This document shows, piece by piece, positions 38,949-64,000 of a DNA stretch of 64,000 nucleotides. The notes under the pieces were generated by a model. It was not told the DNA's origin, ran no database searches, and saw only the letters and a program-made list of their open reading frames with translations. How positions within the stretch are numbered: position 1 is the stretch's first letter; the number at the start of each line of letters is the position of its first letter. A program made the position numbers and the translations under genes. This stretch comes from Henricia sp. BOLD:AAB3569 (taxonomy: Eukaryota; Echinodermata; Asteroidea; Spinulosida; Echinasteridae): contig JBBELK010000504.1 of assembly GCA_037783545.1 (NCBI GenBank), positions 558,001 to 622,000 on the forward strand, written 5' to 3'.

Positions 38949-41420
38949 CTACCAAAATGGAGCACTGTGGTTAAGAGCTGGTTCTGCCGGTCCCTCTTCC
39001 TGCACCAGTTCTACAACCTCACTGGCCATTACATGTTCCTCTTCTGAACTGGAGTACCAATCCCAACTGGAAAGGGCACTCAGTCGAGTCTTGGATGCTC
39101 CATCCTTGGATGCAGTTTGTGCGTGAAATTGGCGATATTGCTCCTTCTCCTGCTCATTGATTGAGGCAGTTTGTGCGTGAAATTGGCGATATTGCTCCTT
39201 CTCCTGCTCATTGATGGAGGCAGTTTGTGCGTGAAATTGGCGATATTGCTCCTTCTCCTGCTCATTGATGGATGCAGTTTGTGCGTGAAATTGGCGATAT
39301 TGCTCCTTCTCCTGCTCATTGATGGATGCAGTTTGTGCGTGAAATTGGCGATATTGCTCCTTCTCCTGCTCATTGATGGATGCAGTTTGTGCGTGAAATT
39401 GGCGATATTGCTCCTTCTCCTGCTCATTGATGGATGCAGTTTGTGCGTGAAATTGGCGATATTGCTCCTTCTCCTGCTCATTGATGGATGCAGTTTGTGC
39501 GTGAAATTGGCGATATTGCTCCTTCTCCTGCTCATTGATGGATGCAGTTTGTGCGTGAAATTGGCGATATTGCTCCTTCTCTTGCTCATTGATGGATGCA
39601 GTTTGTGCATGAAATTGGCGATATTGCTCCTTCTCCTGCTCATTGATGGATGCAGTTTGTGCGTGAAATTGGCGATATTGCTCCTTTTCCTGCTCATTGA
39701 TGGATGCAGTTTGTGCGTGAAATTGGCGATATTGCTCCTTCTCCTGCTCATTGATGAATGCAGTTTGTGCGTGAAATTGGCGATATTGCTCCTTCTCTTG
39801 CTCATTGATGGATGCAGTTTGTGCGTGAAATTGGCGATATTGCTCCTTCTCCTGCTCATTGATGGATGCAGTTTGTGCGTGAAATTGACGATATTGCTCC
39901 TTCTCCTGCTCATTGGTGGATGCAGTTTGTGCGTGAAATTGGCGATATTGCTCCTTCTCTTGCTCATTGATGGATGCAGTTTGTGCCTGAAATTGGCGAT
40001 ATTGCTCCTTCTCCTGCTCATTGATGGATGCAGTTTGTGCGTGAAATTGGCGATATTGCTCCTTCTCCTGCTCATTGATGAATGCAGTTTGTGCGTGAAA
40101 TTGGCGATATTGCTCCTTCTCCTGCTCATTGGTGGATGCAGTTTGTGCGTGAAATTGGCGATATTGCTCCTTCTCTTGCTCATTGATGGATGCAGTTTGT
40201 GCGTGAAATTGGCGATATTGCTCCTTCTCCTGCTCATTGATGGATGCAGTTTGTGCGTGAAATTGGCGATATTGCTCCTTCTCCTGCTCATTGGTGGATG
40301 CAGTTTGTGCGTGAAATTGGCGATATTGCTCCTTCTCTTGCTCATTGATGGATGCAGTTTGTGCGTGAAATTGGCGATATTGCTCCTTCTCCTGCTCATT
40401 GGTGGATGCAGTTTGTGCGTGAAATTTGCGATATTGCTCCTTCTCCTGCTCATTGATGAATGCAGTTTGTGCGTGAAATTGGCGATATTGCTCCTTCTCC
40501 TGCTCATTGGTGGATGCAGTTTGTGCGTGAAATTGGCGATATTGCTCCTTCTCTTGCTCATTGATGGATGCAGTTTGTGCGTGAAATTGGCGATATTGCT
40601 CCTTCTCCTGCTCATTGGTGGATGCAGTTTGTGCGTGAAATTGGCGATATTGCTCCTTCTCCTGCTCATTGGTGGATGCAGTTTGTGCGTGAAATTGGCG
40701 ATATTGCTCCTTCTCCTGCTCATTGGTGGATGCAGTTTGTGCGTGAAATTGGCGATATTGCTCCTTCTCTTGCTCATTGACGGATGCAGTTTGTGCCTGA
40801 AATTGGCGATATTGCTCCTTCTCCTGCTCATTGATTGATGCAGTTTGTGCGTGAAATTGGCGATATTGCTCCTTCTCTTGCTCATTGATGGATGCAGTTT
40901 GTGCGTGAAATTGGCAATATTGCTCCTTCTCCTGCTCATTGATTGATGCAGTTTGTGCGTGAAATTGGCGATATTGCTCCTTCTCCTGCTCATTGATGGA
41001 TGCAGTTTGTGCGTGAAATTGGCGATATTGCTCCTCCTGCTCATTGATGGATGCAGTTTGTGCATGAAATTGGCGATATTGCTTCTTCTCCTGTTCATTG
41101 ATGGATGCAGTTTGTGTGAAATTGGCGATTTTGCTCCTTCTCCTGCTCACATGATTGATGGATGCAGTTTGTGCATGAAATTGGCGATATTGCTTCTTCT
41201 CCTGTTCATTGATGGATGCAGTTTGTGTGAAATTGGCGATTTTGCTCCTTCTCCTGCTCACATGATTGATGGATGCAGTTTGTGCATGAAATTGGCGATA
41301 TTGCTCCTTCTCCTGTTCATTGATGGATGCAGTTTGTGCCAAGCAAGTGTTTGCATTGTCTCTGATTTTAATGTTGCCTCTACTATTTGCCAAATGTTCC
41401 AAAGTCAAAAGTCGCGCCAA
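38949..41420 (-). CDS. Hypothetical repeat protein or exon over a 54-bp minisatellite
   Basis: A minus-strand frame stays open for 823 codons. It has about 41 repeats of an 18-residue unit of the type QTASINEQEKEQYRQFHA, then a non-repetitive acidic tail (SSWDWYSSSEEE) and a stop at 38949. The upstream end has no ATG, so if translated it would be an internal or last exon; TAAAATCAG near 41375 could be an acceptor. Other frames are open too, because one stop-free 54-bp unit is reiterated, so length alone is not evidence. The commonest unit variant (CCT/CTT in the plus strand) is synonymous in this frame, but several others are not. No known family. Confidence 0.3.
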   Translation of the reverse strand: MARLLTLEHLANSRGNIKIRDNANTCLAQTASINEQEKEQYRQFHAQTASINHVSRRRSKIANFTQTASINEQEKKQYRQFHAQTASINHVSRRRSKIANFTQTASINEQEKKQYRQFHAQTASINEQEEQYRQFHAQTASINEQEKEQYRQFHAQTASINEQEKEQYCQFHAQTASINEQEKEQYRQFHAQTASINEQEKEQYRQFQAQTASVNEQEKEQYRQFHAQTASTNEQEKEQYRQFHAQTASTNEQEKEQYRQFHAQTASTNEQEKEQYRQFHAQTASINEQEKEQYRQFHAQTASTNEQEKEQYRQFHAQTAFINEQEKEQYRKFHAQTASTNEQEKEQYRQFHAQTASINEQEKEQYRQFHAQTASTNEQEKEQYRQFHAQTASINEQEKEQYRQFHAQTASINEQEKEQYRQFHAQTASTNEQEKEQYRQFHAQTAFINEQEKEQYRQFHAQTASINEQEKEQYRQFQAQTASINEQEKEQYRQFHAQTASTNEQEKEQYRQFHAQTASINEQEKEQYRQFHAQTASINEQEKEQYRQFHAQTAFINEQEKEQYRQFHAQTASINEQEKEQYRQFHAQTASINEQEKEQYRQFHAQTASINEQEKEQYRQFHAQTASINEQEKEQYRQFHAQTASINEQEKEQYRQFHAQTASINEQEKEQYRQFHAQTASINEQEKEQYRQFHAQTASINEQEKEQYRQFHAQTASINEQEKEQYRQFHAQTASINEQEKEQYRQFHAQTASINEQEKEQYRQFHAQTASKDGASKTRLSALSSWDWYSSSEEEHVMASEVVELVQEEGPAEPALNHSAPFW
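39110..41345. repeat. 54-bp minisatellite, about 41 units
   Basis: The unit reads (plus) GATGCAGTTTGTGCGTGAAA TTGGCGATATTGCTCCTTCT CCTGCTCATT GATG. Variants are ordered: an ATTGGTGG unit is repeatedly followed by a CTTGCTC unit (around 39910, 40130, 40290, 40510 and 40720), implying higher-order repeat units. The 3' end (41030-41330) has shortened and lengthened units, including two copies with a CACATGATTG insert. Confidence 0.95.
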
Positions 41421-41429
41421 CGTATTAAA

Positions 41430-43440
41430 TGTTCTACTATATCTAGCTTTTTGTACATGTAGATAAAGTGAATCGTAGCATTTTTTTGTTGAATCTTGTA
41501 AATTGATACATGTACAGGTCTGTTAACTAGAAGACCAAAGCATGGAGACCTTTCAGGATTGCACACTCTTCTTTCAGGAGAAGCTGCAAGTCAAGAAGCA
41601 TGTGGACTGATGATAATCCCACATGGATAGAGATTGATCTTGGTCTCCGCTGTGCTTCAGTTCGGTGGAACAGGTTCTCCCAGAAGGCTCTTGGAACATT
41701 CTCTGGGTATCTTGGGTTGGGGCCTCCCCGGGTGGAAGTAATCACCCGAGCGAGGGTTGTCTGGCAACGTCAGGGTCTACAAAGTAATGTTCGTACTGCT
41801 GGCCGTCGTACGTGTGGAGTATATTACCTACCGGGCACTTCGTAGACGTGGGTCAATGTCCTTGTGCGTCCGTTCCCACCCCCGTATGTTGCAGCTGCCA
41901 CTCGTCCCTGAGGTGCTCACATAATGGCTCGTCCATCCAAGTGGCGGCTTCGTTGGTGGTCCTGTTCGCCTGAATATTGCTGTTCTCGGTGATCTTCTAG
42001 CGAGACCCGTCCGGGAAGGTCACAAGGGACCCCACGGCTCTGCATCAAACACACATCAAGGACAAAGCCTTGTCCCCCTAGTTTACTACACTGGCCAAAT
42101 TTTGTCGGGCCTTCGCAGAGTTATACAGAGGGAGGGGGCGGGGAGAGGGGCTGGTGAATGGATTACCAGCAGCACCATAATAGCGTTGCCTTTATGATTC
42201 TTAATTGTTTTGCCGACAGCACCATGAATTTGCCGACTGTACATGTACCATGATTTTGCTGAATAAAATAATTATTGGGGGAAGGGTGTCACACCCCACC
42301 CCCATACTTAACCCCCCACACCCTCTATCTACACCGCTGATGTTAACCTAGCAGTATGAACATACCCATGATTTACAAATGATATCTTTCTTTTTTCACT
42401 GTCTTGTCTACAGAAATACTCCTGCAGATTCACTGAATGAACTCTGCGTTTAGGATTCACTCGTGTCTTTGCATCAGACAAACTGTACAATCCTTTTCAT
42501 GGATTCCTGAGATTGGGCCTGTCCATCTGTGTTCCAGCTTTCCCCCTTTCCTAGTTTCTTTCCGGCTGTTCCTCAGCAACACTTGGATTCCAATTCCAAA
42601 GATCTGTGCAAATACATGTAGTTCAATTAAACAAACAAAACACACACACTCAAAAACCCAACAAACGAACGGGGCGAGCAAAGTAGCTACGACGCCTTTG
42701 GCAACCCTGCTCAACGCAACATGCACACTCGGCCATACATTTTTCTACCTGAGCGGCACAAAGAAAAATTCTGGGTTGTTAAAGCCGTCTCAGCTGCGCT
42801 GCTCACCTAGTCCATGTCGCATGGTGGCGCTCTCGTTCTGGTGCGAGACACTACCAGCTGTGAGGCATTGAACAAAGGCTACTGAGAGCATCGTATCAGG
42901 TTGACAGAGTGTTACTTTCCTCGCCTTCCACCTCTGTGGCCCTGGTTCGAATCCTGAAGACGAACAGGGCACACTGTCGAACTTACCGGTTCCACACATA
43001 TACAAAAGAGATTTACATGGTGCTACCGCAAATTATTATTATTAAAACGTCAGTGCTGCATCACACCTGTAAGGCCTGTATTCACATACCTTGTTGGATT
43101 GGCGACGCTTGTCATAGTTATTTTTTTGCCTCCGTTGCGCCTTCTTCACATTTTGCTTCGCAAGAGATGTTGCAGTTGTTCTTACTTCATTCATTCGCTC
43201 CACAAGATCAGAAATGTCATCATCACGAGTGTCTACAAATCTATAGCCGTTATGTTGTCAATAGGAAGAACTGGATCCCTGTTTTGATTTATAATTTGAA
43301 AGATTATTTATTTTCACACACAACAGATTACTTAAAATAAAGTGATTATTGCGTCGGCCCATATGTAAATGGATGTTATTCAGCCATTACGACATGGTAT
43401 ATTAAGTATATAAGTGCTTGTCCCGAGAACACGCTACAAA
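41430..43440. other. No gene recognised
   Basis: Frames up to 144 codons exist (42437-42871) but have no family signature and no splice-consistent neighbours. ACATGT motifs occur near 42240 and 42615. Confidence 0.35.
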
Positions 43441-44713: not shown

Positions 44714-45400
44714 GTGCAGCTGGCTACTATGGGCTAGCAGCTAGTACACTACTAGTAGCGCAGCACGCATGTTGCAACATTAATACGCGTAACCAGTTTT
44801 GTGCCTGAGAAAAAAATAAACCTGGTGATGACTGCAGATTAGACCTACAAGCTATCTTTGTTTTAAAAATCGGCTCTTAATAACACCATTAAATAGTCTT
44901 TTTTTTTACTTTAGTAAAATAACATTGCAAAAGTTTTTTGTTTTACTTGTTAAAGGTCTTTATTCGACTAAAATAACCGGACCGAAAATACTGCACGCGG
45001 ACTCGATCACACCGTATCGCCTGAAATTTGCCAGTGCTATCCAATCCGGGCAGACCCAAATCAACCCGGACTAGATCTTTTGCGACACCGGAGCCAGAGT
45101 TAGGGAGCAGGCCGAGACAACTTCGGATCTTGGCAACGCTCAGGTTGAGCAGAGACCTGGTGGCTCCCTCGTAGCGGTAGTATCGAGCGACTACGGCCAC
45201 CCGCCAGGCATTATACTCGCTGACCGGTAAGGCCCGCCGAGGAATGCACGGACAAATCTTTTATCATTTGAAATTTGAACAAGTCGGTCTGCACAAGAAG
45301 TGCAAAATTAAACAATGGCCTACGGGTGGCTGTAGTTTTAAGGCTCAATAGATTGCACCCACTCGCTTTCGAAGAGAGCCAAGTCATTGACAAGAGAAAA
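44714..45400. other. No gene recognised
   Basis: A minus-strand frame at 44943-45200 has no recognisable family. Confidence 0.35.
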
Positions 45401-45618
45401 AACCTTGCTGCAGAGTCTGGGTTGCTACATAATACATATGCTGCTCACCTCGCCTATGACCCTCTTCCTTTTTGTTGCTTTACTTCCTTGTGGGGGATTG
45501 ATGCCAACAAACCTTGCTGCAGAGTCTGGGTTGCTACATAATACATATGCTGCTCACCTCGCCTATGACCCTCTTCCCTTTTGTTGCTTTACTTCCTTGT
45601 GGGGGATTGATGCCAACA
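45401..45618. repeat. Direct tandem duplication, 2 x 109 bp
   Basis: AACCTTGCTGCAGAGTCTGG at 45401 recurs at 45510, and the two units are almost identical through GGGGGATTGATGCCAACAAA. Confidence 0.9.
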
Positions 45619-46137
45619 AACATACTGCAAGAAAATTAAATTAAATTCACCCATGTCATCGCTTAGGCAGTACTGAATTCATCCATCGCTCACCAGTGCT
45701 ACGTCTTCTGCTCCATCATCTATCACCTCTACTGCTGCGTCTTCTGTTCCTATCTCCACCACTTCTGCTGCATCTTCTGTTCCTCTGTCTCCCATCTCTC
45801 TTGCATTCTCTAATTCTGTGTCTCCAACCACTGCTGCATCTACTACCTCCACTTCGTCAGCATTTGTGATGTCATCAGCCTGAGGAATGAGAAGTAGAAT
45901 GAGTTTCTTTTCCCTTAAAGAAATGTGTCCCGATAGAGTGTAGAGATACTTGAATTATCCATTGCAAACCAACATTTCTAGACCAACATTTCTATAAGTT
46001 GCAAGGATTTCAACAATTATCCACAAATCCAGAGTTTCTGTTTCACATATTAACACACATTTCAAAATAGTTGGATTGCTACTTCAACTTGCTATTTCAA
46101 GCAAAAAGCAATGTGATAGGATTTACTAAAACATTAC

Positions 46138-47189
46138 CTGATTTTTTAGGCCTTATGTACAGGCATGATCTGCCCATGCCCCGCCCCCCGGTCTTAATTG
46201 CCATTTGGCAATTTGCTTGAGCTGGTAGAACCTCCAAGGTCCTCTTGGACTTGGCTGATGTACAGCGCAGCAGTTCCATTTCTCCATTACCAATGCTAGG
46301 GAAGTTATTCCTTATGGTCTGCAGGAACTGCGATGCAGTAGATGCCAAATTAAATTTTCTTTTCTTCTTATGTTGATGTGTTTCTGCAAAGAAAAGTAGA
46401 TGAAATGTCACATTTAACCAGAGGTTATGATTAAAAATGAGATACAGAGGCACTACAGGAAATAAATAAATCAACAATGGATCATTAATTTGAAACTTCG
46501 GACTCATTTTAAATCACCTGAAACGTGTTCAGTAAAATGGCAATAATGGCAAAGTTGGTGAAAAATGTGTCCTCTTTCAATGAAACGACGTGGTATATTT
46601 TTCGAAAGAATTTAGAATTCTGAAATGGGGGAAATAAATAATTTACGACCCTTGAGGTTTAAAACCAGCCTGAAATATCCATGTAGGAATAATTTCATCC
46701 CGTTCCATCCATGCGCCTGGGAGTTTATCAATAACAAACGTAAAAGGGCTTAATCAAATAATTATGATACGATAAAGACAATTTGATATAGAAGCTACCT
46801 TTTTATTACTGTACTTTAAGGGTACAGCCATGCTTAAACATTTTGACTTCTATACATGTAGAAGTGTGGTTTATGAGAAAAATCAAATTTTCTTGAGACC
46901 CTAAGTTGTCCAACCTGGGATCTGAGTATTTGGGCTAAAGCAAAATGCTACATTCACAGATAGTTGCCTTTTATAGCATGATGTGACAGACAAAGATTTG
47001 ATGGAAAGAAGTGGCCCATCGGCCACTTGTGTTTCAAATGCCTTACCATTTTCTCTTCTGCGTTTGTTGGGATTGACAGTGGTAACCCCCACTTCCACAC
47101 ACTCTACTGTGTATGACTGTTCCCGTGTCCCCCTACCGGTATGTCGACGACGGATTGTAGCTGGTGCACTATTTCGAAAAACACTGAAC
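46138..47189 (-). CDS. Second (accessory) MULE reading frame, partial, function unknown
   Basis: Two exons downstream of the transposase are joined in phase 1. 47047-47189 (acceptor TTTCCTACAG, donor GTAAGG) encodes a basic segment with IRRRHTGRGTREQ and NPNKRRRENG. 46138-46383 (acceptor TTTCTTTGCAG, donor GTAATG) encodes KKKRKFNLASTASQFLQTIR, NGEMELLRC and a conserved C-terminal stretch. Both segments and most splice sites persist in copy 2 (57015-57257 and near 57910-58045). No known domain is recognisable. The basic clusters suggest a nuclear or DNA-binding role, which is inference. The start and end exons are not settled; the acidic frame at 45695-45879 does not join in phase. Confidence 0.5.
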
Positions 47190-47853
47190 CTGTAGGAAAT
47201 TACAAAGAAATACAGTATGTGAACGTATGCTACATGTTACTCTACTCATTGTGGAAATGAAACCTTTCTCTGTCGGTGTCTTGTCCTGTTTTGTCTTGTG
47301 TGCAAAGTTTGTCTCCTGCCACTCCTTCATGTGATCTCCCCTCAATTTCACTGTTCAGGTGTAATTCATTTGCCACAACTTGCTAGGACATGCTTTTAAA
47401 TATATGACATGTTTTCACAATATGAATTGATTTGGGTCTACATCATATTGAATTTGACTATAAATGCTTCAAAATATTAAATAGTTACTTGTAGGTAAGC
47501 ATTCCCCTACAAAACCTCATGTGAGTAAGTTAATATTATTAATAGCCATGGTCAACTTCTGCATTCTTTCCCAATTGATTGCTTTCGATGACTTGAACAT
47601 CCGGGAATGTGTGGTGGTTAACAATCACGCGCGCGCCAATAGACGCACGCACGCAATCCATTCCCTCGATCCATGACGCGCACTTGCGCATGTTTTTGTG
47701 GTGCGCCCAGCGTGTACGCACATCGATCTGGGCTCTGTGCTGCACAATAACAGAAACGCACGGTGTCCGCAAAAGCTTCATTTTATATAATAATTTAAAA
47801 TACCTCCCAAAAATACAATCCATGACAAGAACAAAATAATAAAATGCAAAATA

Positions 47854-48311
47854 TTAAAGGGACACACCGGCTTTGTTGGGCTATTTTGGGCTCGAAATGG
47901 ACCCATACAAGATTCTGAATGCCCTTCCGAAATGAACTAAACATATCATGAAAAGGAAACCACGGAGTTTTGCCTTTTTTTAGCAATTTTCAAAAAACAG
48001 AGGTCACGTGACTTTTCGGAACCAGATTATGGTTTCGAAAAGTCACATGGTCTTGCGAGTTAGTTTTGTGTCCAGCCGCATGAACGTTTCTTACTACAGA
48101 ACTGCACCAAATTCAACTCTGATTGACAAAGTAGTTGCAACGGCTGGTAAAGCGTATAACCCGTTTTTTGATCGTTTTTCTTAATTTTGCACTTCTTTAG
48201 TAAATTACAGGTTATTTTGATGATCTTTTTTCACAACGACCATTGAAAAAGTATTGTTACTGCTGCTACATCACTAAATCATGTAAACAGTAGGCCGGTG
48301 TGTACCTTTAA
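47854..48311. mobile_element. MITE, TTAAAGGGACACACCGG TIRs, inside MULE copy 1
   Basis: TTAAAGGGACACACCGGC at 47854 is inverted as GGCCGGTGTGTACCTTTAA ending 48311. It is present at the same place in MULE copy 2 (59674-60128), so it predates the MULE duplication. Confidence 0.8.
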
Positions 48312-48524
48312 GGTGAACATTTAAGAGTAGGTTAACGTAAATAGTCACATGACTCGAAATCGCACTGTTTCGCTTCCCTGCCAGAATTCGAAGTTTGCTT
48401 TTCCGGGGGAAAAGTATGGGAGAAAAAATGTAATCTGTACCATCTTGGGCAGAAATAAGCTCATGAAGTAAAATCCTGGGTCATTGCTAATGATATGATG
48501 GGCTTTTAAAACCATAGGGCTAGC

Positions 48525-51500
48525 CTAAACTATGGCCGGGGCATAGATGCGGCCACATGCCTTCAACAGTTGTGTTGCTGTTTTCCGGCCATCGTTGTAT
48601 TGGTCCCACAGTTGAAAGAGTCGGCCCTGAAGCTGTCTGTATTTCCTTCTTTGGTGGTGCTGCATTTTTGCTTCTCGCACGAGACGCACTTCGAGGGATG
48701 TCATTCTCGACTCTTGGTGTAGGAGATCAACCAAAAGGTAAAAACTCAGCTTACCCTTCTTGGCGTGGCCATTCAAACGGCGGTGCCACCCCTCAACGTC
48801 ATTATTGGTTCTAACTGACTGTCCAAAGACCGACCAAGACTCTGCATTCCACGTGTTGCGGATGTAAGTTGTCAATTCTTGGAGTCGTGGTCCATCAGCC
48901 TGCCCTTCAAGATGGAGGAAGACTGGCCCGATGTGGTCACGTGGAAAGAAGGGCAGGCTTAGGAGCATTCTACAATATCGATGAACTTCCTCGTCTCTTG
49001 AGTATGCAACTTGCAGGCCCAGCTGTTGAATTTTCCGCCACACTGCTTGGCCCCAGTGGAAAGAGCAGCCCTTTACTAGTACTCCAGGGAACACGGCCCG
49101 CAATGCCTTCCACACTGGCTTTTCAAAGTCGACCAGGACTTCCTCAACTTTCGGCTCGCTGGGAAGGCACGACCTAACCGCCCGAAAGACCTGGCGGTAG
49201 TCTTTCGTCTTCCGACCAGACATCAAAACAAATGCCAATGGAACTTGCTTGGTCTGCTCGTCCTGCTTCACGAAAGCATGAATAGAGAATAGTTGTGTAA
49301 ATGGCTGCCGCACAACTTTAAAGGTTCCATCTGCATACAATCTTTTGGCCTTGGATAGCAGATGCAACATGTCTGGAGTGGCCATGATGAGGAGTCTCCT
49401 ATCATCTACCCAGATGTCTCCCTGCACAAAATTGTCGGGTATGTGATTAACGTCCAAGTTGAAGTTAAGATCTTGAGGGTCCTTTGGTCTTGTGGCCTGC
49501 CTTGCACGGTTCGCTGCCCTTGCAAGATTTTCCTTTCTAGGGAGATTGGTTAGAGGTTCTTGTGGCATCCCATCAAGGAGAACATCCTGGACAATCTCTC
49601 CTGCTGGCTGAAAGTAATCGTCCTTAGCCCTAGACTTGATGGCGTGGGTGATTTTGGCTACGTTTGATGCACCTACTTGAATGGGATGAAGATGAGGCTG
49701 TGGGCCACAGTTGAAAGAATTCGGACCTCGCTGGACAATTGTAGCTTTGCAGTTGATGGTCTTATTTCTAATAGTGCACTGCCAATACGTGTTGACTGGT
49801 CCCCGGCCTTTGATATTGTAAGTGTACCCATCTGGATCAATGAGCTTTTCTTTGCCTCGAAGGGATCCGACAATTTCATACTCCCCTCTTTGCTGGTGTG
49901 CGACATCTCCATCCTGAATCCTCTCCTCGTCGAGGGATATCTCCACCACTGGTGTGGGCAACGCGAAGGATGGCAGCGAAACTTCATGGTCCATAGTCTA
50001 AAATGTAAACAAGAGTTGTGGTTATTTTACCCTTTCATTGCCCATTGTTGTTGACATTTAACGCACATGTAATTAGCCGGCTTGAAAGTCTGTACTGTAC
50101 CTTGAATACCTCGCACATAAGGGTCTTTCTATAAATTAGGGGTCCAAAAGTGTGACATTTGGTGTCCCCCGTTACACCTGATGTGTTATTTTTCGTACAA
50201 AAATCATTAAAATGCCTTTAAACCATTTGTGTATGAATTGTACTTTGTGTACTCGCTCTTTGAGATGAAAAGTATTTGAAGAATGTGTCCTGAATTTTAA
50301 AAAACAAGATGTAAAATGTAACGGGGGACACCAACATTGGACCCCTAATTTATAGAAAGACCCATTACTCTATGCATTTTGAAGCTGGACCATCTAAAGT
50401 TACATGTTGAAATAAAATTTCGTCAAAATAACGAGTTAGAACGTCTTGTTTGACTTGAAATTGACTTTGAAAGCTGGAGCTTGCCCAATCTGTGCATGAT
50501 AAATTCAAGAAAAGAGTAACGATTTCGGGTTATAAGACTGGTTTAAAGTTGTTGATTGAACGTCGAAGCTTTCAAAGTTAACGTCCATTTCAAGTTCTAA
50601 CTCGTTATTTTGACGAAATTTCATGGCGAGACGGAGTACATGTTTCAACATGCTCATTTCAACATGTATTTTCGGATGGTCCAGCTCCAAAATGCATCTA
50701 GAGTAATGTGCGAGGTATTCCAGGTACAGTACAGACTTTCGCGTCCGCTAACAATAACATACATGTTCCAGCGTGCACCCCCTTGCCACTTGGCAACCGT
50801 TGCCAACTGCCTGGTAGTCTGGTGCATGACTCTCTTATATGCGAGCGCCATAGCGCAGAGGCAGGACTCTGGGATTTATGCAAATCTATCACGCAACTGG
50901 CTTATCGAATGCAAATGTATGCCACGCCACTAGAGGGCATTTGCAATCAAAATGTGCACACAGTATGTACATGTAAACGTAGGAAAAGAAACTGAAGTTT
51001 TAACACAGCGGACAAATGACTTACCAAATCCAGGGTGGCCTCCTGTTCAATGCCCTGAACATCACCATCACTTCGGGATGCTGAATTTGGTGTACTTGCA
51101 GATGGTGGTGGTCCCACGTCCATTGATTCATGTAGCTCATCTTCGTCAGAAGTTGAATTGGCTGGTCCCTCTGCCATCTAAAATTCAACAAAATTCGCTG
51201 TTGTTTTAAGTGTTAATCTTTGGCCAAAGAACAGCTAGTGACCAAATATCATAGACAGCTTGTGCAACTCCAGCATTTGTTTTGTTGACTGTGATTTCGA
51301 AAAAGAATCATGATTCCACTTGGAATCGATTTTGCTTCATAGCGATTTTGCTTCACAACATATCGACTATAGACTCTACATGGATTCACATATTTTATTT
51401 GTACAATCAAAAATGAATTGTGGAAGGATTCGTGCTACGTATTGCACAAATGATTCACGCTATGATCTGAAAAAACAGTCCTTCCACAGGTTTCTCAAGG

Positions 51501-52285
51501 CAATGTACAGCATAAATCCTGGACTGTAAGAAATAGATGAAATGTTGGATGTAACATTTCTGGTAATGACAATTTAGGTGTTTAATTTTGATGTTCGTTG
51601 TGTCGTTTAGCACAATTACAGTCATCTTTCTTTTGTAATCATTTTTGTAAACAGTCAATTTCACTCTTAGCTGACAAAAGGTGTCTGGTGTCAAAAACCT
51701 GGTTTATTATCTCAAGGACTACATGTACCTTTATCGCCACACAATTTTATGTTTTACTTACTTTGTATTTCTGGGCCAGATTGTTGTATTTCTTTCGGGC
51801 CTGCTCTGCGGTGACACAATTGTCCAATTCCATTTCCTTCAGAAAAAAGCTGCAAAGAAAAAAAATCACATTTCCTCAAAAACAATGATCTTAACAGAAC
51901 TTTGCAATCCAGGGATCAGACAATGGATGGTGGGTGAGTCTTATCATACAGTTTGGGAACAATATTGCACAAGGACAACCTTTACGTACATAAGAAAAGA
52001 CAGATATTTGCTGTTGACTGACAGAAAGTGATATTACATAGAATTGATTTACCAAAGTATTATTTCAATAGCATCCCTTAACCTTTTAGAGGGTTGTCCA
52101 ACCCCTCGATCCCCACGCCAATCAAAAGGGTTTGATCTGTTCATTTTAATGTATTTTGATATTAAATAAATTCATAAGTGCTTAACTTACGTGAAAGCAT
52201 CTTTCATGGTTCCCCGCTTTCCTGTTTTAAACTTTCCATTATGTTTTTCTCTTAAAGGAAGAAAAATGTGTTTCCTCTTCAGACC
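48525..52285 (-). CDS. MULE transposase with Myb/SANT-like and FLYWCH domains (apparently intact; 5' exon not found)
   Basis: Four exons join in frame: 52191-52285, 51762-51849, 51025-51177 and 48525-49997, each with GT-AG borders. The first two encode a Myb/SANT-like segment (GTMKDAFT, TAEQARKKYNNLAQKYK). The third is an acidic Ser/Pro linker. The last exon, numbered from its internal ATG (489 codons), holds a FLYWCH finger (W71, C73, C82, H101, H103) and a MULE DDE domain: Asp222 in YADGTF, Asp289 in LVDFEKP, C310..H313 in CSFHWGQ, and Glu401 in NNDVEGWHRR. No stop or frameshift interrupts it. The protein should bind element ends and catalyse cut-and-paste transposition. Translation could also start at the last-exon ATG. 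The start exon above 52285 remains unknown. Confidence 0.9.
50121..50363. mobile_element. MITE, GGGTCTTTCTATAAATT family, inside MULE copy 1
   Basis: The ends GGGTCTTTCTATAAATTAGG and CCTAATTTATAGAAAGACCC are inverted repeats. MULE copy 2 lacks it (GCACATTACTC near 61955), giving an empty site. It sits upstream of the large transposase exon, within the intron between 49998 and 51024. Confidence 0.85.
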
Positions 52286-52588
52286 CTGAACAAAGAAAAA
52301 CAAAGAATAAAGTAATAATGAATACAAATCATTGGCAATTAAATTATAAGTTTAAATTCCACTCGCAGAAACTAGCCAACAGGTAGCTAGGCTGATTGTG
52401 CTTTTTGCAGTATCTTTACCAATACCAAATGTAGACTGCGTACAACTTTAAAAGGAGTATTAAAAACATGTAAAATGTGAAGGGTTGATATTTCTACTGT
52501 ATAATCAGACAATAGTTGAGATAAAAAAATAGCAAAATGTCTCACAGACATTGTCATTGTCATTGATGAAAACGCAGGCATTAATGTT

Positions 52589-52639
52589 GTTGCGAAAACC
52601 GTAACCCACAAGGCATCGTGGGGTTACGGTCTTCGCAAC
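52589..52639. repeat. Hairpin next to the MULE TIR
   Basis: GTTGCGAAAACCGTAACCC (52589-52607) pairs with GGGTTACGGTCTTCGCAAC (52621-52639) with one mismatch and a 13-base loop, 20 bp inside the TIR. Confidence 0.8.
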
Positions 52640-52815
52640 TAAACTAGGCCTCTTATTACTAAAGACTCCCCAAAAAGTAACTCAGCATGTCAAAATACCC
52701 CCATAAGTACCAAACCATTGGTCGTGTGCACGAAAACACAAATGATATCAAAAGTTTGTTCTTTTCTGTAAATTTTGATACCCTTCTGTCCAGTTTACGA
52801 AAATCTGTCACATTT

Positions 52816-53079
52816 CTGAAGGCATTATTACAAGGTTACGAACAATCCTGCATTAAGGAAAGTGAAACACTTCACACATCAATTCTTTCACATCCTGTTT
52901 TATTCATGACAAAGCAGCTTTCTTTCAACTTCTCTCTTTGTTTTAACTTCTCTTTCTCTGTTTTAACTTCTCTTTCTTTGATTTAATGTTCTTTATAACT
53001 TGTTCGAAACTTATCAGTCTTGTGGCGCGCGCGCGATGTGCGGTTGGTTTAGTCTCTAGCTCACAAATATATTTATTAA
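52816..53079. other. No gene; short pyrimidine-rich repeats
   Basis: AACTTCTCTTTCT-type units repeat around 52925-52985. Nothing else is recognised. Confidence 0.5.
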
Positions 53080-54480
53080 CCTCACACAGGGATGAGCGGT
53101 TATCCCTGCACAAGACGGGATAATCTATACTGAACAGTGGACCTAACCTAGGGGCTGTTCGTTTGGTGGAAATATACCACCACTTTGCGAAAGAGAGACG
53201 AATTATTCAGTTACTAAGCAACCATCAACCTCACGGAACCTACGGGGTCTAATAAGGCTCACAGGCAATGCAATAATCCTCACGGGGTCTAATAATCCTC
53301 GCAGGGCAATGCAATAATCCTCACGGGGTCTAATAAGGCTCACAGGGCAATGCAGTAATCCTCACAGGGTCAAATAATCCTCGCACAGTCAATAATTGCA
53401 GAGACAACAATCAATATGGTTTAATCCAGAATCACTGTTATAATCAATAAATGTACACAGGCTTGATTTAATAATAATGCAGAGTGATGCAGCGTGATAA
53501 ACCTCACGCATAAATCAAGTTGGTAAACCTCACAAGTGATAGGTGACTTCAATAAACCTCACACGTGAATCAACGTAAATGCAGTACAGGTAATCCTCAC
53601 GGGTGATAGGTGGCTCTAATAAGCCTCACTGGGGTACCGTAAACCTCAGTCCAGCTCAGCTCAAATACTGCCAAGCTTGGGTAAACCTCACGTGGTCAAC
53701 TGCACCACGTGTTTACGATAAGTAAACCTCGCTGACTATTAGCAGCGACAATAAGCCTCACACTGTTAAGGAAATTCCCCTGGCACTGATTTGTGTGGGG
53801 CCGATCAGCAGGGCGAGTACACTGCACCCGGTAAACCTCAACGGGAAAGGCTAGCTCCGAGGTTAGGGCTGCAATCGACCGTTCCCACGCTCATAGCGTA
53901 GGGAAACCGGCATGCAATCCCTCCAACCACTCTTTGCTACGCCGATATCCCGACCTTAGGTTCACCCAGTTTCCGCCAGCTATAACCGGGTCCCACCCTC
54001 ACCAATGCCAAGCTAGAATAACCTTACTCCGTGGTAAACCTCACAGTCGCCACGTATAGTCAACCTAGTTGCATGTACTTAATGTGCCAATATGCCTCAC
54101 GGGGCCTAGTAATCCTCACGGGGTAATGCAATCATCCTCACGGGGTAATGCAATCATCCTCACGGGGTAATGCAATCATCCTCACGGGGTAATGCAATAA
54201 TCTTCACGGGGTAATACAGTAATCTTCACACTACTAGAGAAATGAGCAGCCAACGATACAGTTCGGACAGTTAGCCCCGGGACAATAATTGACCCTCACG
54301 GGACCACAAAGAGAAAGGGCAAATCTACGAGAACGCTATAGGCAATGCGACACAGGTTCGCCTCGGCCGTCCTGACAGGCTGGCCCAAAGATAACCTCAA
54401 TATCGCCCGTAGCCTACACCCAACTTACGGATTACCTCCTTTCTCAATCTGAGTCCCCAAAACTAACAATCCCAAACACA
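53080..54480. repeat. Degenerate CCTCACGGGG repeat tract
   Basis: The motif CCTCACRGGG, often as AATAATCCTCACGGGGT or GTAAACCTCAC, recurs dozens of times at irregular spacing. 54114-54230 is a regular array of about five 21-22 bp units (AATCATCCTCACGGGGTAATGC). No reading frame explains it. Confidence 0.8.
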
Positions 54481-54853
54481 ACAATTGGCTACTCACTTGC
54501 TCCAGAACAACAAGTACAAAGTCACGAATGTTTCTAAGCTACACCCTTACTCGAAGTCTCCCAGTGTCGGTCTGCCCACACACGGCACAGCGTCTTCGCA
54601 AAGCACGGGATATACACTGCAAATGATCAAACTGTACGGCGCCACGTCACCAACTCTAAGTTCTAACTGCATAGGTCCTTACAGAACGACGCCATACTGC
54701 ATAAGTGCCAAAATCACATGGCCAGCGCCCAGACATAGAGCAATGCGCTCTCCTGATTGGCCGCCGCGCGCCATGCATTATTCATGACCTAGACGCGCTA
54801 CAAGTCTGCTGTGAACCTGTTTCGCTACAGTCTGCTATTACTCTCCTCTATGC
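54481..54853. other. No gene recognised
   Basis: A 100-codon plus frame (54485-54787) has no family signature. It lies between the repeat tract and the Tc1 relic. Confidence 0.4.
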
Positions 54854-56061
54854 TCAATACTTTGTGTGTCCACCTGCTGCATCAATTACAGCCAAGCACC
54901 TCCTTCTTATGCTGTTTATTAGGCGTCTGATGCGATGACGGTCAATGGCAGCCCACTCTCTCAGCAAAATGCGCCGGAGGCCATCTAAGGTAGTGGTGGG
55001 CCGGATGCGCCTGTCTAATTGAAATTTGAGATGTGCCCAAAGATGCTCTATGGGATTCAGATCCGGGCTTCTTGAAGGCCAAGGGAGAAGGCAGTGAAGG
55101 CCAAGGGAGAAGGCAGTTAACTCCTTCCTCATCAAGAAATCTCGACGTTACTCTGAGTGGCATTATCGTCCATTAGGATGAAGTTCTCACCAATCGCACC
55201 AGCATATGGGATCACTTGGGGCCTCAGTACGTCGTTGACATAGCGATTAGCATCCATGTTTCCGCGCATCACCACTGAGTCGGTCTTCCCGTTTCTGCTT
55301 ATCCCTGCCCATACTAGCAGACCTCCACCACCAAACGCCTCCACCTGTTAAACTCCGTCATCCCTAATGTCTTCGTTTCTCCTTCTCCAAACACGTCGAC
55401 GTCCGTTATATAACCCAACGAAGTGTAACATGTGACTCATCTGTAAACAGTACAGATTCCCATCGACGTCTGCTCCACCGGCGATGATGTCTGGCAAAGG
55501 CTAACCTGGCCTGTCGGTGGATTGGTAGCAGCTTTGGCTTCTTTCTCAGACGTCGAGCATGTAGTCCTTCAAAGCGGAGCCTATTCCTCACAGTCTGGAG
55601 GCAAATCTGTCCTGGCCGTTGTCCACGTCTTCGGTGAAGACGCGTCCTGATAGCTCGAGCTGCAAAAAGAAAAAAGGGGGAAAGGAAACATTTACTTTCA
55701 CGGTTGTCAATATTGTCAAATTGATAAATTAAAAACAAGAACAACGACAATTACCTGTAGAACTTCTGTTTCTCTCAGCATGGTTTATTATGGACGCATC
55801 TTGATTGGCGCTTGTTACTCTCGGCCTGCCACTTCTGGGAAGATCCTTAAGGTTTCCTCCTGCCTGTCGTCTGGTTCGACACCTCTGAACTGTATTCCGA
55901 TGCACGTTCATTTGCCTTGAAATCTCAGTTGTACTCATTCCGGCATCAATCATACCCATCATGCGCCAACGCTCATTCTCAGAGAGCTTTCCCATCTTGT
56001 TCAAGAATGATGTTTCCTTCGTCTGAGACACCCTGCCCATTGAAATCTTGTAAATGTACAA
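54854..56061 (-). pseudogene. Tc1/mariner-like transposase relic with a 95-bp intron
   Basis: The N terminus (56061-55755) has the paired-type HTH (GMSTTEISRQMNVHRNTVQR, then SGRPRVTS). A spliceosomal-looking intron (55660-55754, CAG|GTAATT ... TTTTGCAG|CT) rejoins in frame to RAIRTRLHRRRGQRPG and VLFTDESHV (first Asp). Later segments carry LVWAGISRNGK, LMDDNATQ (second Asp) and WPSRSPDLNPIEHLW (Glu). These lie in different frames: a frameshift and stop follow DESHV, another frameshift follows LMDDNA, and a 22-bp duplication (CTTCTCCCTTGGCC) precedes WPS. It is inactive. The catalytic triad positions are still readable. Confidence 0.85.
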
Positions 56062-57014
56062 GTGGAAAGCTACTCCTCTTTGATTGAATCAGAACAATTG
56101 GGTTGTACAACCATATTCCCCCATGCATGGTAAGATCCGCTTTAAAAATCCCGCGAAGAATGCAGTCTTTCAGTGAATGGCAATCAATATGGCATACATT
56201 TTACTGCAACTTTTAAAAAGAGTGAAATTTTCGTAAACTGGACACTGTGTTGGCAATACTGATCGCAATGGGGCAAGAAGGGTATCAAAATTTACAGAAA
56301 AGAACAAACTTTTGATATCATTTATGTTTTCATGCACACGACTAACGGTTTGTAACGTACATGTATGGGGGTATTTTGACATGCTGCGTTACTTTTTGGG
56401 GAGTCTTTATGTTCTCTTCACTGGTATCTCCATCCACTGCTCTTTCTTCCGTCTCTGTTGCTATTTCTGCTGCCAATACTCCTCCATCTCTCACAACTGC
56501 TGTGTTATCTGCTCCTCTGTCTACCACTTCTGCCACATCTTCTGTTCCTCCTTCATCTCCTATCTCTATTGTCACAATTTCTTCTGCTCCATCATCTATC
56601 ACCTCTACTGCTGCGTCTTCTGTTCCTATCTCCACCACTTCTGCTGCATCTTCTGTTCCTCCGTCTCCAATCTCTCTTGCATTCTCTAATTCTGTGTCTC
56701 CAACCACTGCTGCATCTACTACCTCCACTTCGTCAGCATTTGTGACATCATCAGCCTGAGGAATGAGAAGTAGAATGAGTTTTTTTTTCCTTTAAGAAAT
56801 GTGTCCCGATAGAGTGTAGAGATACTTGAATTCTCCATTGCAAACCAACATTTCTAGACCAACATTTCTATAAGTTGCAAGGATTTCAACAATCATCCAC
56901 AAATCCAGAGTTTCTGTTACATATATTAATACACATTTCAAAAGTAGTTGGATTGCTACTTCAACTTGCTATTTCAAGCAAAAAGCAATGTGATAGGATT
57001 TACTAAAACATTAC

Positions 57015-58045
57015 CTGATTTTTTAGGCCTTATGTACAGGCATGATCTGCCCATGCCCCCCCAGGTCTTAATTGCCATTTGGCAATTGGCTTGAGCTGGT
57101 AGAACCTCCAAGGTCCTCTTGGACTTGGCTGATATACAGCGCAGCAGTTCCATTTCTCCATTACCAATGCTAGGGAAGTTATTCCTTATGGTCTGCAGGA
57201 ACTGCGATGCAGTAGATGCCAAATTAAATTTTATTTTCTTCTTATGTTGATGTGTTTCTGCAAAGAAAAGTAGATGAAATATCACATTTAACCAGAGGTT
57301 ATGATTAAAAATAAGATACAGAGGCACTACAGGAAATAAATAAATCAACAATGGATCATTAATTTGAAACTTCAGACTCATTTTAAATCACCTGAAACGT
57401 GTTCAGTAAAATGGCAAGTTGGTGAAAAATGTGTCCTCGTTCCATGAAACGACGTGGTTTATTTTTCGAAAGAATTTAGTTTCAATTCTGAAACGGGGGA
57501 AATAAATAATTTAGGACCCTTGAGGTTTAAAACCAGCCTGAAATATCCACGTAGGAATAATTTCATCCCGTTCCATCCATGCGCCTGGGAGTTTATCAAT
57601 AACAAACATAAAAGGGCTTAATCAAATCATTATATGATACGATAAAGACAATTTGATATAGAAGCTACCTTTTATTACTGTACTTTAAGGGTACAGCCAT
57701 GCTTAAACATTTTGACTTATATACATGTAGAAGTGTGGTTTATGAGAAAAATCTAATTTTCTTGAGACCCTAAGTTGTCCAACCTGGGATCTGAGTATTT
57801 GGGCTAAAGCAAAATGCTACATTCACAGATAGTTGCCTTTTATAGCATGATGTGACAGACAAAGATTTGATGGAAAGAAGTGGCCCATCGGCCACTTGTG
57901 TTTCAAATGCCTTACCATTTTCTCTTCTGCGTTTGTTGGGATTGATAGTGGTAACTTCCACTATCACACACTCTACTGTGTATGACTGTTCCCGTGTCCC
58001 CCTATGTCGATGACGGACTGTAGCTGGTGCACTATTTCGAAAAGC
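57015..58045 (-). pseudogene. Accessory MULE frame, copy 2
   Basis: 57015-57257 matches the copy 1 exon at 46138-46383, with small in-frame changes and a 3-bp net loss. The second exon (about 57914-58045) is retained, but the sequence before its acceptor has lost about 18 bp, weakening the splice site. The low-coordinate region 56400-56757 reads in minus as an acidic repeat frame of 128 codons running into the TIR. Confidence 0.5.
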
Positions 58046-58404
58046 ACTGAACCTGTAGTATGTGAACGTATGCTACATGTTACTATACTCATTGTGGAAA
58101 TGAAACCTTTCTCTGTCGGTGTCTTGTGTGCAAAGTTTGTCTCCTGCCACTCCTTCATGTGATCTCCCCTCAATTTCACTGTTCAGGTGTAATTCATTTG
58201 CCACAACTTGCTAGGACATGCTTTTAAATATATGACATGTTTTCACAATATGAATTGATTTGGGTCTACATCATATTGAATTTGACTATAAATGCTTCAA
58301 AATATTTAATAGTTACTTGTAGGTAAGCATTCCCCTACAAAACCTCATGTGAGTAAATTAATATTATTAATAGCCATGGTCAACTTCTGCATTCTTTCCC
58401 AAAT

Positions 58405-58952
58405 GGGCTGCTTTCGAGCGCTCGTCCCTGGTGCACCTAGGCGTTGGGAACGTTACGTCACACACATGCGTACACACAATCGCGCTCGAAAGCGTTTTCG
58501 GGATCCCTGGTGCACCACGGTCATTAAAAATTACATCCCGCCTGTTAAAAGCTTGGTTTTCCACAAAATTAATCACAGGTATCTGATAAAAATAAATCAT
58601 GAAAATATTTACAACATTTGCATTCGATGTGGAAGCTTGAACATTCAAAATATCAACCCAAATTTCAAGAATCATTATACGACGCGCCAGTCATTTTTGC
58701 ATGAGTACGCGCATCTACGCATGTCTCCCAGTTGTGCCACCATCTGGTGCACCAACACGCTTTCGGGCGAGCACCATGGAGCACCAGGGATCCCTGGTGC
58801 CACGCTCGAAAGCAGCCTTGGCTGCTTTCGTGCGCGGCACCAGGTGCTCCATGGTGCTCCATGGTGCTCACCCGAAGGCGTGTGTAAGCATGTGTGTGAC
58901 GTAACGTTTCCACCACCTGGGAGCACCAGGGACGAGCGCTCGAAAGCAGCCC
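58405..58952. mobile_element. 548-bp TIR element inserted in MULE copy 2
   Basis: GGGCTGCTTTCGAGCGCTCG at 58405 is inverted at 58933-58952, with about 36 bp of TIR (continuing TCCCTGGTGCACC). Copy 1 has the empty site (CCCAATTGATTGC near 47573). The interior repeats the GCTTTCG and CACCAGG motifs in both directions. Superfamily unknown. Confidence 0.8.
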
Positions 58953-59022
58953 TTGATTGCTTTCGATGACGTAGAACATCTGGGAATGTGTGGTGGTTAA
59001 CAATCACGCGTGCGCCAATAGA

Positions 59023-59468
59023 CTCGTAAAAAATACTCACCAGCGTATTTTCATTTGAAGATGCCGCACGTGGGCGTTGTGATACGTTCAAATTATTACA
59101 ATACAGGAATATAATAAGTCCTGCTTTTCCTTTGTATTCCGAAATACGCAGCTCAATGCCTTTGCCGAGCCTGTGCCTTTAATTATGCCAGATCCTCCAC
59201 TGGTTGTATGTATGACATAAAAACCTTCTGGGAAGTGCCGGACCTCGATAATTATATAATATTGGATGGCTTTGAGGGTGATATGAGAATATACCGCAAG
59301 AGTCATGAAAATACCGAACGAGCCGAATTATTGTTATATAAAATGAAGCTTCTATTTTCTTTTTTTTGTAAGATTTCCGCAAGATTTTTGTCTGTTTTGT
59401 GTTGAAAACTTCAGTTTTTTCACGGTTTACAAATGCATGCGCTTTTGTTACTGTTGTACTCTGGCGCG
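59023..59468. other. About 445-bp insertion relative to MULE copy 1
   Basis: Copy 1 joins GCGCCAATAGAC directly to GCACGCACGCAATCC. Copy 2 has this extra block between the same flanks. No TIRs, gene or poly(A) tail are obvious. Confidence 0.55.
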
Positions 59469-59673
59469 CATTGCACACGCACGCAATCCATTCCCTCGAT
59501 CCATGACGCGCATGTGTTTGTGGTGCGCCCAGCGTGTACGCACATCGATCTGGGCTCTGTGCTGCACAATAACAGAAACGCACGGTGTCCGCAAAAGCTT
59601 CATTTTATATAATAATATAAAATACCTCCCAAAAATACAATCCATGACAAGAAAAAAATAAAGGGACACACTA

Positions 59674-60128
59674 TTAAAGGGACACACCGGCTTTGTTGGG
59701 CTATTTTGGGCTCAAAATGGACCCATACAAGATTCTGAATGCCCTTCCGAAATGAACTAAACATATCATGAAAAGAAACCACGGAGTTTTGCCCTTTTTT
59801 AGCAATTTTCAAAAAACGGGTCACGTGACTTTTCGGAACCAGATTATGGTTCCGAAAAGTCACATGGTCTTGCGAGTTAGTTTTGTGTCCAGCCGCATGA
59901 AACTTTCTTACTACAGAACTGCACCAAATTCAACTCTGATTGACAAAGTAGTTGCAACGGCTGGTAAAGCGTATAACCCGTTTTTTGATCGTTTTTCTTA
60001 ATTTTGCACTTCTTTAGTAAATTACAGGTTATTTTGATGATCTTTTTTCACAACGACCATTACAAAAGTATTGTTACTGCTGCTACATCACTAAATCATG
60101 TAAACAGTAGGCCGGTGTGTACCTTTAA
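59674..60128. mobile_element. MITE, TTAAAGGGACACACCGG TIRs, inside MULE copy 2
   Basis: Orthologous to 47854-48311, with the same TIRs. A partial extra AAAGGGACACACTA precedes it. Confidence 0.8.
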
Positions 60129-60346
60129 GGTGAAAATTTAAGAGTAGGTTAACGTAAATAGTCACATCACCCGAAATCGCACTGTTTCGCTTCTCTACCA
60201 GAATTCGAAATTGGACTAAAGTTTGCTTTTCCGGGGAAAAGTATGGGAGAAAAAATGTAATCTGTACCATCTTGGGCAGAAATAAGCTCATGAAGTAAAA
60301 TCCTGGGTCATTGCTAATGATATGATGGGCTTTTAAAACCATAGGG

Positions 60347-63300: not shown

Positions 63301-63806
63301 TTTTGCTTCACAACATATCGACTATAGACTCTACATGGATTCACATATTTTCATTGTACAATCAAAAATGAATTGTGGAAGGATTCGTGCTACGTGTTGC
63401 ACAAATGATTCACGCTATGATCTGAAAAAACAGTCCTTCCACAGGTTTCTCAAGGCAATGTACAGCATAAATCCTGGACTGTAAGAAATAGATGAGATGT
63501 TGGATGTAACATTTCTGGTAATGACAATTTAGGTGTTTAATTTTGATGTTCGTTGTGTCGTTTAGCACAATTACAGTCATCTTTCTTTTGTAATCATTTT
63601 TGTAAACAGTCAATTTCACTCTTAGCTGACAAAAGGTGTCTGGTGTCAAAAACCTGGTTTATTATCTCAAGGACTACATGTACCTTTATCGCCACAAAAT
63701 GTTATGTTTTACTTACTTTGTATTTCTGGGCCAGATTGTTGTATTTCTTTCGGGCCTGCTCTGCGGTGACACGATTGTCCAATTCCATTTCCTTCAGAAA
63801 AAAAGC
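60347..63806 (-). pseudogene. MULE transposase, copy 2 (inactivated)
   Basis: It matches the copy 1 transposase exon by exon (large exon 60347 to about 61837, linker exon about 62991-63143, Myb-like exon near 63718-63806). Lesions against copy 1: a base change or insertion near 61793 disturbs the N-terminal frame; CGA to TGA creates a stop in EVH(R)YCRM near 60819; an 18-bp in-frame insertion lies near 60677-60695; a small deletion in TNNDVEGWH near 60625 destroys the catalytic-Glu segment; a deletion shifts the C terminus; and an extra A in the Myb-like exon (63798-63804) shifts its frame. Confidence 0.85.
62155..62518 (-). mobile_element. tRNA-derived SINE inserted in MULE copy 2
   Basis: The minus-strand head GGGGTACCGTGGCCGAGCGG has a good box A, followed by box B GGTTCGAACCTCC. 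The body is shared with 18119-18485 and 28370-28600, and it ends in an A/AAT-rich tail. Copy 1 lacks it (GACTGGTTTAAAGTTG near 50540), so insertion followed the MULE duplication. Confidence 0.85.
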
Positions 63807-64000
63807 TGCAAAGAAAAAAAATCACATTTCCTCAAAAACAATGATCTTAACAGAACTTTGCAATCCAGGGATCAGACAATGGATGGTGGGTCAGTCTTAT
63901 CATACAGTTTGGGAACAATAATACACAAGGACAACCTTTACGTACATAAGAAAAGACAGATATTTGCTGTTGACTGACAGAAAGTGATATTACATAGAAT

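Follow-up and report, generated by a model that had tools for sequence, protein, structure and literature searches.

Does the genome of Henricia sp. BOLD:AAB3569 (Asteroidea) encode a MULE transposase that has gained a second DNA-binding module? The question arises from a 64,000-nucleotide stretch of contig C504 (C504:558001-622000; the window, numbered from its first letter), in which four minus-strand exons, A to D, can be joined into one protein with a Myb/SANT-like segment, an acidic linker, a FLYWCH zinc finger and a MULE catalytic domain. A preliminary description, made from the letters alone, had taken this protein for an intact transposase, perhaps recently or still active. Comparison with the 740.7 Mb genome that we searched points to a different reading: the locus is very probably an ordinary FLYWCH-type MULE gene beside a broken piece of a PIF/Harbinger Myb gene, two unrelated remnants on one strand rather than a fusion. 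The block occurs in a tandem array of four copies on C504, the window exons forming copy 1. Genome matches are counted below among those listed, and these counts are lower bounds.

Exons, splice frame and transposase domains

The exons and the domains of exon D are as follows:

52285-52191, minus strand: exon A, GT-AG bounded; N-terminal half of the Myb/SANT-like domain; homologue of exon 2 in a Harbinger Myb gene; carries a frame displacement
51849-51762, minus strand: exon B, GT-AG bounded; C-terminal half of the Myb/SANT-like domain; homologue of exon 3 in the Harbinger Myb gene (C411, C832, C1081)
51177-51025, minus strand: exon C, GT-AG bounded; acidic, with an ATG immediately past the acceptor AG
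49997-48525, minus strand: exon D, open FLYWCH-DDE MULE transposase, stop-terminated; D222, D289, CxxH, E401 (ATG = 1)
49686-49862, minus strand: FLYWCH zinc finger (PF04500, 27.1 bits), placed in the window from exon D residues 46-104
49053-49337, minus strand: MULE transposase domain (PF10551, 45.4 bits), residues 221-315, covering D222, D289 and CxxH, not E401
48852-48853, minus strand: site of a six-codon loss, 18 bases carried by copies 2-4 and missing from the window copy, near the catalytic Glu

The exons, their GT-AG splice sites, the phases (2 at A/B, 0 at B/C and 0 at C/D) and the open joined frame were recovered as described, and the Myb/SANT-like segment, the FLYWCH finger and the MULE DDE core had been named rightly. 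The agreement of phases is nevertheless weak evidence for a fusion, because the A/B phase is inherited from a Harbinger gene and the C/D phase is uninformative about the Myb exons. Only the B/C junction bears on a fusion, and a match there has a one in three chance of arising at random. Relatives of exon C are confined to the array (4 of 4 matches), and the exon perhaps belongs to the MULE gene.

Exon D is identified as a MULE transposase by a PF10551 match over the cut-off (45.4 against 27.6 bits) and by the location of all catalytic residues. The motifs ADGTF, LVDFEK, CSFHW and NNDVEGWH correspond to D222, D289, C310xxH313 and E401, counted from the exon D ATG as had been claimed. An N-terminal FLYWCH-type finger, common in MULEs but not universal, is present above its cut-off (PF04500, 27.1 against 23.6 bits). 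The peptide of exons A and B matched Myb_DNA-bind_4 (PF13837; cut-off 27 bits) only, at 16.9 bits alone and 14.8 bits within the whole joined protein, with the match beginning at profile position 12; three A+B variants with flank reached 18.9-19.7 bits, still below the cut-off. The profile search that had been proposed for the spliced protein is thereby borne out for the FLYWCH and MULE parts and falls short for the Myb part. An AlphaFold model of exon D alone had a mean pLDDT (predicted local distance difference test) of 36.3 and was not used, and no close relative of the transposase was confirmed in the viral_contigs and genome_contigs collections.

A FLYWCH finger before a MULE DDE core is also the order of Phantom/Muta elements: Muta1 has its finger at 24-92 and D214, D283 and E419, and the window counterpart has a finger at about 45-103 and D222, D289 and E401. 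Such a finger was predicted in 13 of 14 Muta families of Aedes aegypti (PMC5225508), and Table 1 of PMC6446971 gives FLYWCH for Phantom and MuDRx and no Myb, a word absent from that paper's main text. The window protein differs in the spacing from the second D to the E (112 against 136, six residues of the gap being the window-copy loss). It differs also in that no terminal inverted repeat (TIR) or target-site duplication (TSD) was found and three of the four copies are broken, whereas Muta elements are described with 8-9 bp TSDs and mostly long TIRs (PMC5225508, PMC6446971). MULEs without TIRs have been reported (PMC6446971), and placement in the Phantom/Muta subgroup is tentative.

Kinship and condition of the Myb-like exons

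PIF elements carry two genes, one for a transposase and one for a Myb-like (SANT/MADF) protein; in a zebrafish PIF/Harbinger element, the Myb-like protein binds DNA, interacts with the transposase and is needed for nuclear entry of both proteins (PMC9710019). Exons A and B resemble a gene of this second kind. Searching the genome with the A+B peptide gave 18 matches, six in the array (exon A in copies 1 and 3, exon B in all four) and 12 elsewhere. At C411, exon 2 (TEDECRTFINLRGKHNSKFKTGRRGAARDAF) reads in a single frame and is followed by exon 3 (IVLNEMDLQDKVSPEQARKKWANLAQKYK) and a further exon (ELKHPPTGRGTEGDDESLISWPFF); joined, these Myb exons score 45.5 bits for PF13837, and a convergent open reading frame (ORF; L030:8823-7990) is a DDE_Tnp_4 transposase at 102.7 bits. 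The C411 Myb exons align by tblastn with window exons A and B at E values of 3e-7 and 6e-7 and 67% identity, so that both exons are homologous to a Myb gene paired with a DDE_Tnp_4 transposase. The same arrangement of a Myb exon and a convergent DDE_Tnp_4 recurs at C832 and C1081, with an ELK exon present at C1081 and not found at C832. At all three loci, the Myb exons lie about 6-7 kb from the convergent transposase.

The C411 locus (L030:1-9901) is of PIF/Harbinger type in its own right, with a four-exon Myb/SANT gene open in the exons read and a DDE_Tnp_4 ORF of 278 residues. C411, C1081 and C808 each have a candidate first exon whose last residue, K, is followed by a phase-1 T|GTAAGT donor; at C832 and C10 none was found (three of five loci positive). 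The selecting pattern was an in-frame ATG with K or R ahead of a T|GT donor, and the candidates would provide the domain's conserved Trp as T|GG.

The window gene differs from these relatives in having no recognisable first exon, last exon or transposase and in being out of frame. In exon A, the frame that starts SEEETHF, the expected beginning of the domain after the Trp codon, runs into a stop, and LREKHNGKF/LREKHNGKFKTGKRG lies in another frame. This 95-base out-of-frame exon A is common to copies 1 and 3 and to a fragment on C808, whereas its counterparts at C411, C832 and C10 are single-frame. We judged the displacement from these outgroup frames, which read through, and not from an X-joined search; a query with X bridging both frames scored no higher for Myb (18.9 and 19.1 bits, against 19.7). 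Because the displacement is shared by all three copies that keep exon A, it predates the array. An argument from openness to intactness was rejected: exon A is open in the joined frame, yet the Myb domain begins in a different one.

What precedes exon A has also been replaced. The fragment at C808:287.5 kb reproduces window 52661-52182 and 52185-52055 to 98%, with an insertion of about 850 bases between the two parts. The likeness starts at the TA where a Tc1-like element abuts in the window, and past that TA the C808 flank holds its candidate first exon; the window has the Tc1-like element and then a repeat ORF in that place. The neighbour is:

52662-56407, minus strand: Tc1-like element directly adjoining the Myb fragment, flanked by TA at each end, with terminal arms of some 134 bp (91%)

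The element matches HTH_Tnp_Tc3_2 at 48.1 bits and carries a DDE_3 tail at 26.9 bits (cut-off 28.6) in a separate frame. A pattern search between exon A and this element found no Harbinger-type first exon, and tblastn found neither exon 4 nor DDE_Tnp_4 in the window or in L009-L011 (a match at 28430 with E 0.04 was not counted). No Harbinger-type transposase on C504 matched at E 0.001. A complete PIF/Harbinger element, with full Myb gene and transposase, is therefore not what the locus holds. Nor does it hold a complete Myb domain in frame with the MULE transposase, since the domain start is in another frame and the first exon was not found. The Myb part of the supposed intact Myb-FLYWCH-MULE protein is truncated and out of frame, and that claim falls.

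Across the genome, the company kept by Myb modules is equally informative. Among 102 listed PF13837 matches, 22 lie within 10 kb of one of the 139 listed Harbinger-type DDE matches (0.4 expected), all 22 on the opposite strand; no MULE match comes within 20 kb of any of them (0.25 expected within 10 kb), and 80 are near neither type within 10 kb. The zero beside MULEs has limited power, because the PF13837 search misses the window's own weak exons. Peptide searches, unlike the profile, do detect them: of 13 listed loci of the window's Myb type outside C504, six are within 10 kb of a Harbinger-type match (three on the opposite strand and strong, three on the same strand and weak at 28-29% identity), and none is within 20 kb of a listed MULE match, the closest, on C808, being 29.5 kb away. 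Such Myb modules in the Henricia genome go with Harbinger elements, not with MULEs.

MULE relatives tell the same story from the other side. Exon D gave 90 genome matches, eight in the C504 array and 82 on 44 other contigs at 23-68% identity. Of these 82 matches we retrieved 17 loci (L012-L028), spread over 16 of the 44 contigs, and found convincing Myb-like exons in none of the 17 within the DNA examined, a weak tblastn match in L014 (E 0.09, 33%) not being counted. Pfam searches on ORFs from five of them returned no Myb domain. The Myb module is accordingly no usual part of this transposase: its exons match PIF/Harbinger accessory genes, loci of its type stand apart from listed MULEs, and 17 MULE loci lack it.

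The tandem array and the state of the transposase

The second array copy, partly within the window, comprises:

45704-64000: tandem segmental duplication (part), 45704-52044 corresponding to 56580-64000 with insertions
60355-61834, minus strand: exon D of copy 2, with frameshifts and stops
62991-63143, minus strand: exon C of copy 2
63717-63803, minus strand: exon B of copy 2, with one extra T; little of its exon A, past the window end, survives

Exon D occurs four times (C504:606528, 618355, 631465 and 643287); within this array of four, only copy 1, that of the window exons, is open, and copies 2 to 4 are broken. Exon A is retained in copies 1 and 3; in copies 2 and 4 the Tc1-like arm (window 56248) runs directly into 52211, so that most of exon A is lost. 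The extra T in exon B is found in copies 2 and 3. Unrelated flanks were duplicated along with the genes, which argues for segmental duplication rather than transposition. Since all copies share their flanks, there is no single insertion with flanks of its own to inspect for TIRs or a TSD. The best inverted pair between 49998-52661 and 45704-48524 was no better than E 0.93, and full-length copies with TIRs and target duplications, which had been suggested as a check, were not found bracketing the window gene in the stretches compared. Between copies 2 and 3, exon D shows just 1 to 3 differences, a near-identity that may reflect an effect of assembly or haplotype within the array.

The statement that the large exon has no lesions holds in so far as exon D contains no stop or frameshift; it fails in that six codons are gone and a conserved Trp has become Leu. 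The spacing from NTW to WSVF is 11 residues in the window exon; at each of the 15 sites that the pattern matched in 14 other loci, it is 16-18. The Leu lies three residues before the first catalytic Asp, where Trp occurs at 14 of 14 pattern-matched sites in other loci, by a pattern that accepts W, L, Y or F only (a distant L028 ORF has Ile there). Thirteen substitutions are unique to the window copy of exon D, nine of them nonsynonymous, in keeping with the 0.72 expected without selection (P = 0.52). Nonsynonymous counts in the other classes are 18 of 21 where copies 1 and 4 differ from copies 2 and 3 (P = 0.96), and 10 of 19 in copy 4 (P = 0.06). Between copies 1 and 2, divergence is 2.5% in exon D, 2.0% in exon C, 1.1% in exon B, 1.4-1.7% in introns B-C and C-D and 2.7% in the 3′ flank. 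The lesions together with neutral-like substitutions give no sign that the window copy has been maintained. With the broken exon D in three of four copies, they also speak against the suggestion of recent or present activity, which we consider unlikely for this copy from its sequence. The family itself has been under purifying selection in the past, to judge by codon positions: exon D and L014 agree much less at the third than at the first two (identity 0.74, 0.85 and 0.36 in order).

Elsewhere in the genome, L012:7123-9495 (C216), L013 (C808) and L018 (C126) form one FLYWCH-MULE family, 98.4-99.6% alike where overlapping. In L012, GGTCGTTTCGTACCC-type repeats make up inverted arms some 2.4 kb apart; similar repeats lie just upstream of the L013 ORF; the L013-type end repeat gave one match in the window against 2.6 expected by chance. 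No copy of this family has finger and core in one unbroken frame: L013 has a finger at 17.4 bits (below the cut-off) and a core at 42 bits in two frames, and L012 a core at 41.9 bits and no scoring finger. Judged by the repeat-built inverted arms of L012 and the near-identity of its copies, the family is a better candidate than the window locus for recent MULE activity.

Several smaller features accompany the array. Intron C-D of the window copy contains a 244-bp miniature inverted-repeat transposable element (MITE; 50119-50362) with perfect 27-bp inverted ends, which is not in copies 2-4 and has relatives at 26630-26880 and in L015 and L025; foldback-like inverted repeats around it (50073-50751) are present in all four copies. 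An insertion in the copy 2 intron (62158-62522) resembles by eye a tRNA-derived short interspersed nuclear element and has partial relatives at 18230 and 28552. A minus-strand acidic repeat ORF occurs at 56342-56791, at the tandem-duplication junction (56580), and at 45397-45855; these repeats may have mediated the duplication. Further away, 9152-12256 and 13708-16812 are identical 3105-base stretches, 4556 bases apart, and represent either a very recent duplication or an assembly artefact. Positions 38949-41522 hold an 857-residue stop-free frame with a near-perfect tandem peptide repeat (QTASINEQEKEQYRQFHA units), and two other frames there are also open over long distances.

Competing readings and meaning of the locus

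Several observations weigh against two unrelated neighbours. The A-B-C-D frame of the window copy is open, its sole stop being the terminal one. A candidate start exon (MPAFSSMTMTMS), with a GTGAGA donor at 52545 in phase 0, could keep that frame open, so a chimeric ORF is conceivable. Copies 2-4 retain the exon B and exon C splice sites, apart from the copy 3 exon B donor, which reads GTAGGT. The absence of Myb exons beside other MULEs was established in 17 loci, over about 6-9 kb upstream for most and less in L028, several being 5′-truncated. At C411, no Harbinger TIRs were found, the 9.9 kb searched containing no convincing inverted repeats. It is quite improbable, in our estimate, that the window copy is transcribed from the start exon near 52545 through exons A to D, which would place a Harbinger Myb segment, remodelled and given a new N-terminus, before the FLYWCH-MULE part. 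Were it so, two DNA transposons would have been joined across superfamilies, with DNA binding through two modules.

The same evidence could reflect a true Myb-FLYWCH-MULE fusion that once existed, in which MULE exons replaced the last exon of the Harbinger Myb gene before later decay. The compatible B/C phase, the retained GT-AG sites, the open joined frame and the common strand fit this history. It is nonetheless unlikely, as the arrangement is known from a single locus, seen four times only through segmental duplication; the exon A displacement in all three retaining copies is older than the array; exon C has an ATG of its own; and the alignment of the L013 ORF to exon D starts at residue 5, beside exon D's own ATG, with the two ATGs nearly co-located by eye (MEVAENPLPDAALP against MDHEVSLPSFALP). 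Linkage of Myb and MULE at a second, independent locus was not seen among the 13 listed loci outside C504. Titles and abstract openings in the literature searched, which left most subscription journals outside its scope, describe no Myb-FLYWCH-MULE protein, and this fits the view that there is none here.

As in host-transposase fusion genes, splicing could unite DNA-binding and transposase domains here. A host gene built from both transposons and expressed from the window copy as a DNA-binding regulator would draw on the open A-D frame and the possible start exon at 52545. It is highly improbable: both sides here are transposon-derived, the Myb side is broken, the window-unique substitutions look neutral, exon D diverges more than the introns and about as far as the 3′ flank, and the conserved Trp and six codons are lost. 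We assign the lowest probability to a composite mobile element with a Myb-like accessory gene and a MULE transposase gene, on the model of two-gene PIF or MuDR. The two remnants are same-strand neighbours less than 4 kb apart and were copied together, but as a tandem segmental duplication including unrelated flanks and not as dispersed insertions; the stretches compared contain no TIR pair around exon D and the Myb exons, and neither a first nor a last exon of the Myb gene is recognisable.

In the preferred reading of two adjoining remnants, exon D, perhaps with exon C, would be a Phantom/Muta-like cut-and-paste MULE transposase, whose FLYWCH finger, by analogy with its family, would bind the element ends while an RNase-H-like D-D-E core cuts and joins DNA. 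Exons A and B would be the second and third exons of a PIF/Harbinger Myb/SANT-like accessory gene encoding a separate DNA-binding protein, which, by analogy with its family, would recruit the transposase. Tandem segmental duplication would then have copied the block into four now-decaying copies. The locus would most likely make no Myb protein that works, and any MULE transposase begun at the ATG of exon D or C would be a damaged one; it is unlikely that a Myb-FLYWCH-MULE protein functions here.

A fusion, if true, would have meant one transposon superfamily taking over another's DNA-binding helper, and the evidence here argues against it. The locus serves instead as a warning that adjoining remnants with compatible splice phases can mimic new domain fusions in transposon-rich genomes, and gene predictors may well annotate such neighbours as fusions. 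As a by-product, the Henricia genome is seen to hold PIF/Harbinger loci with convergent Myb and transposase genes, as well as a FLYWCH-MULE family with near-identical copies.

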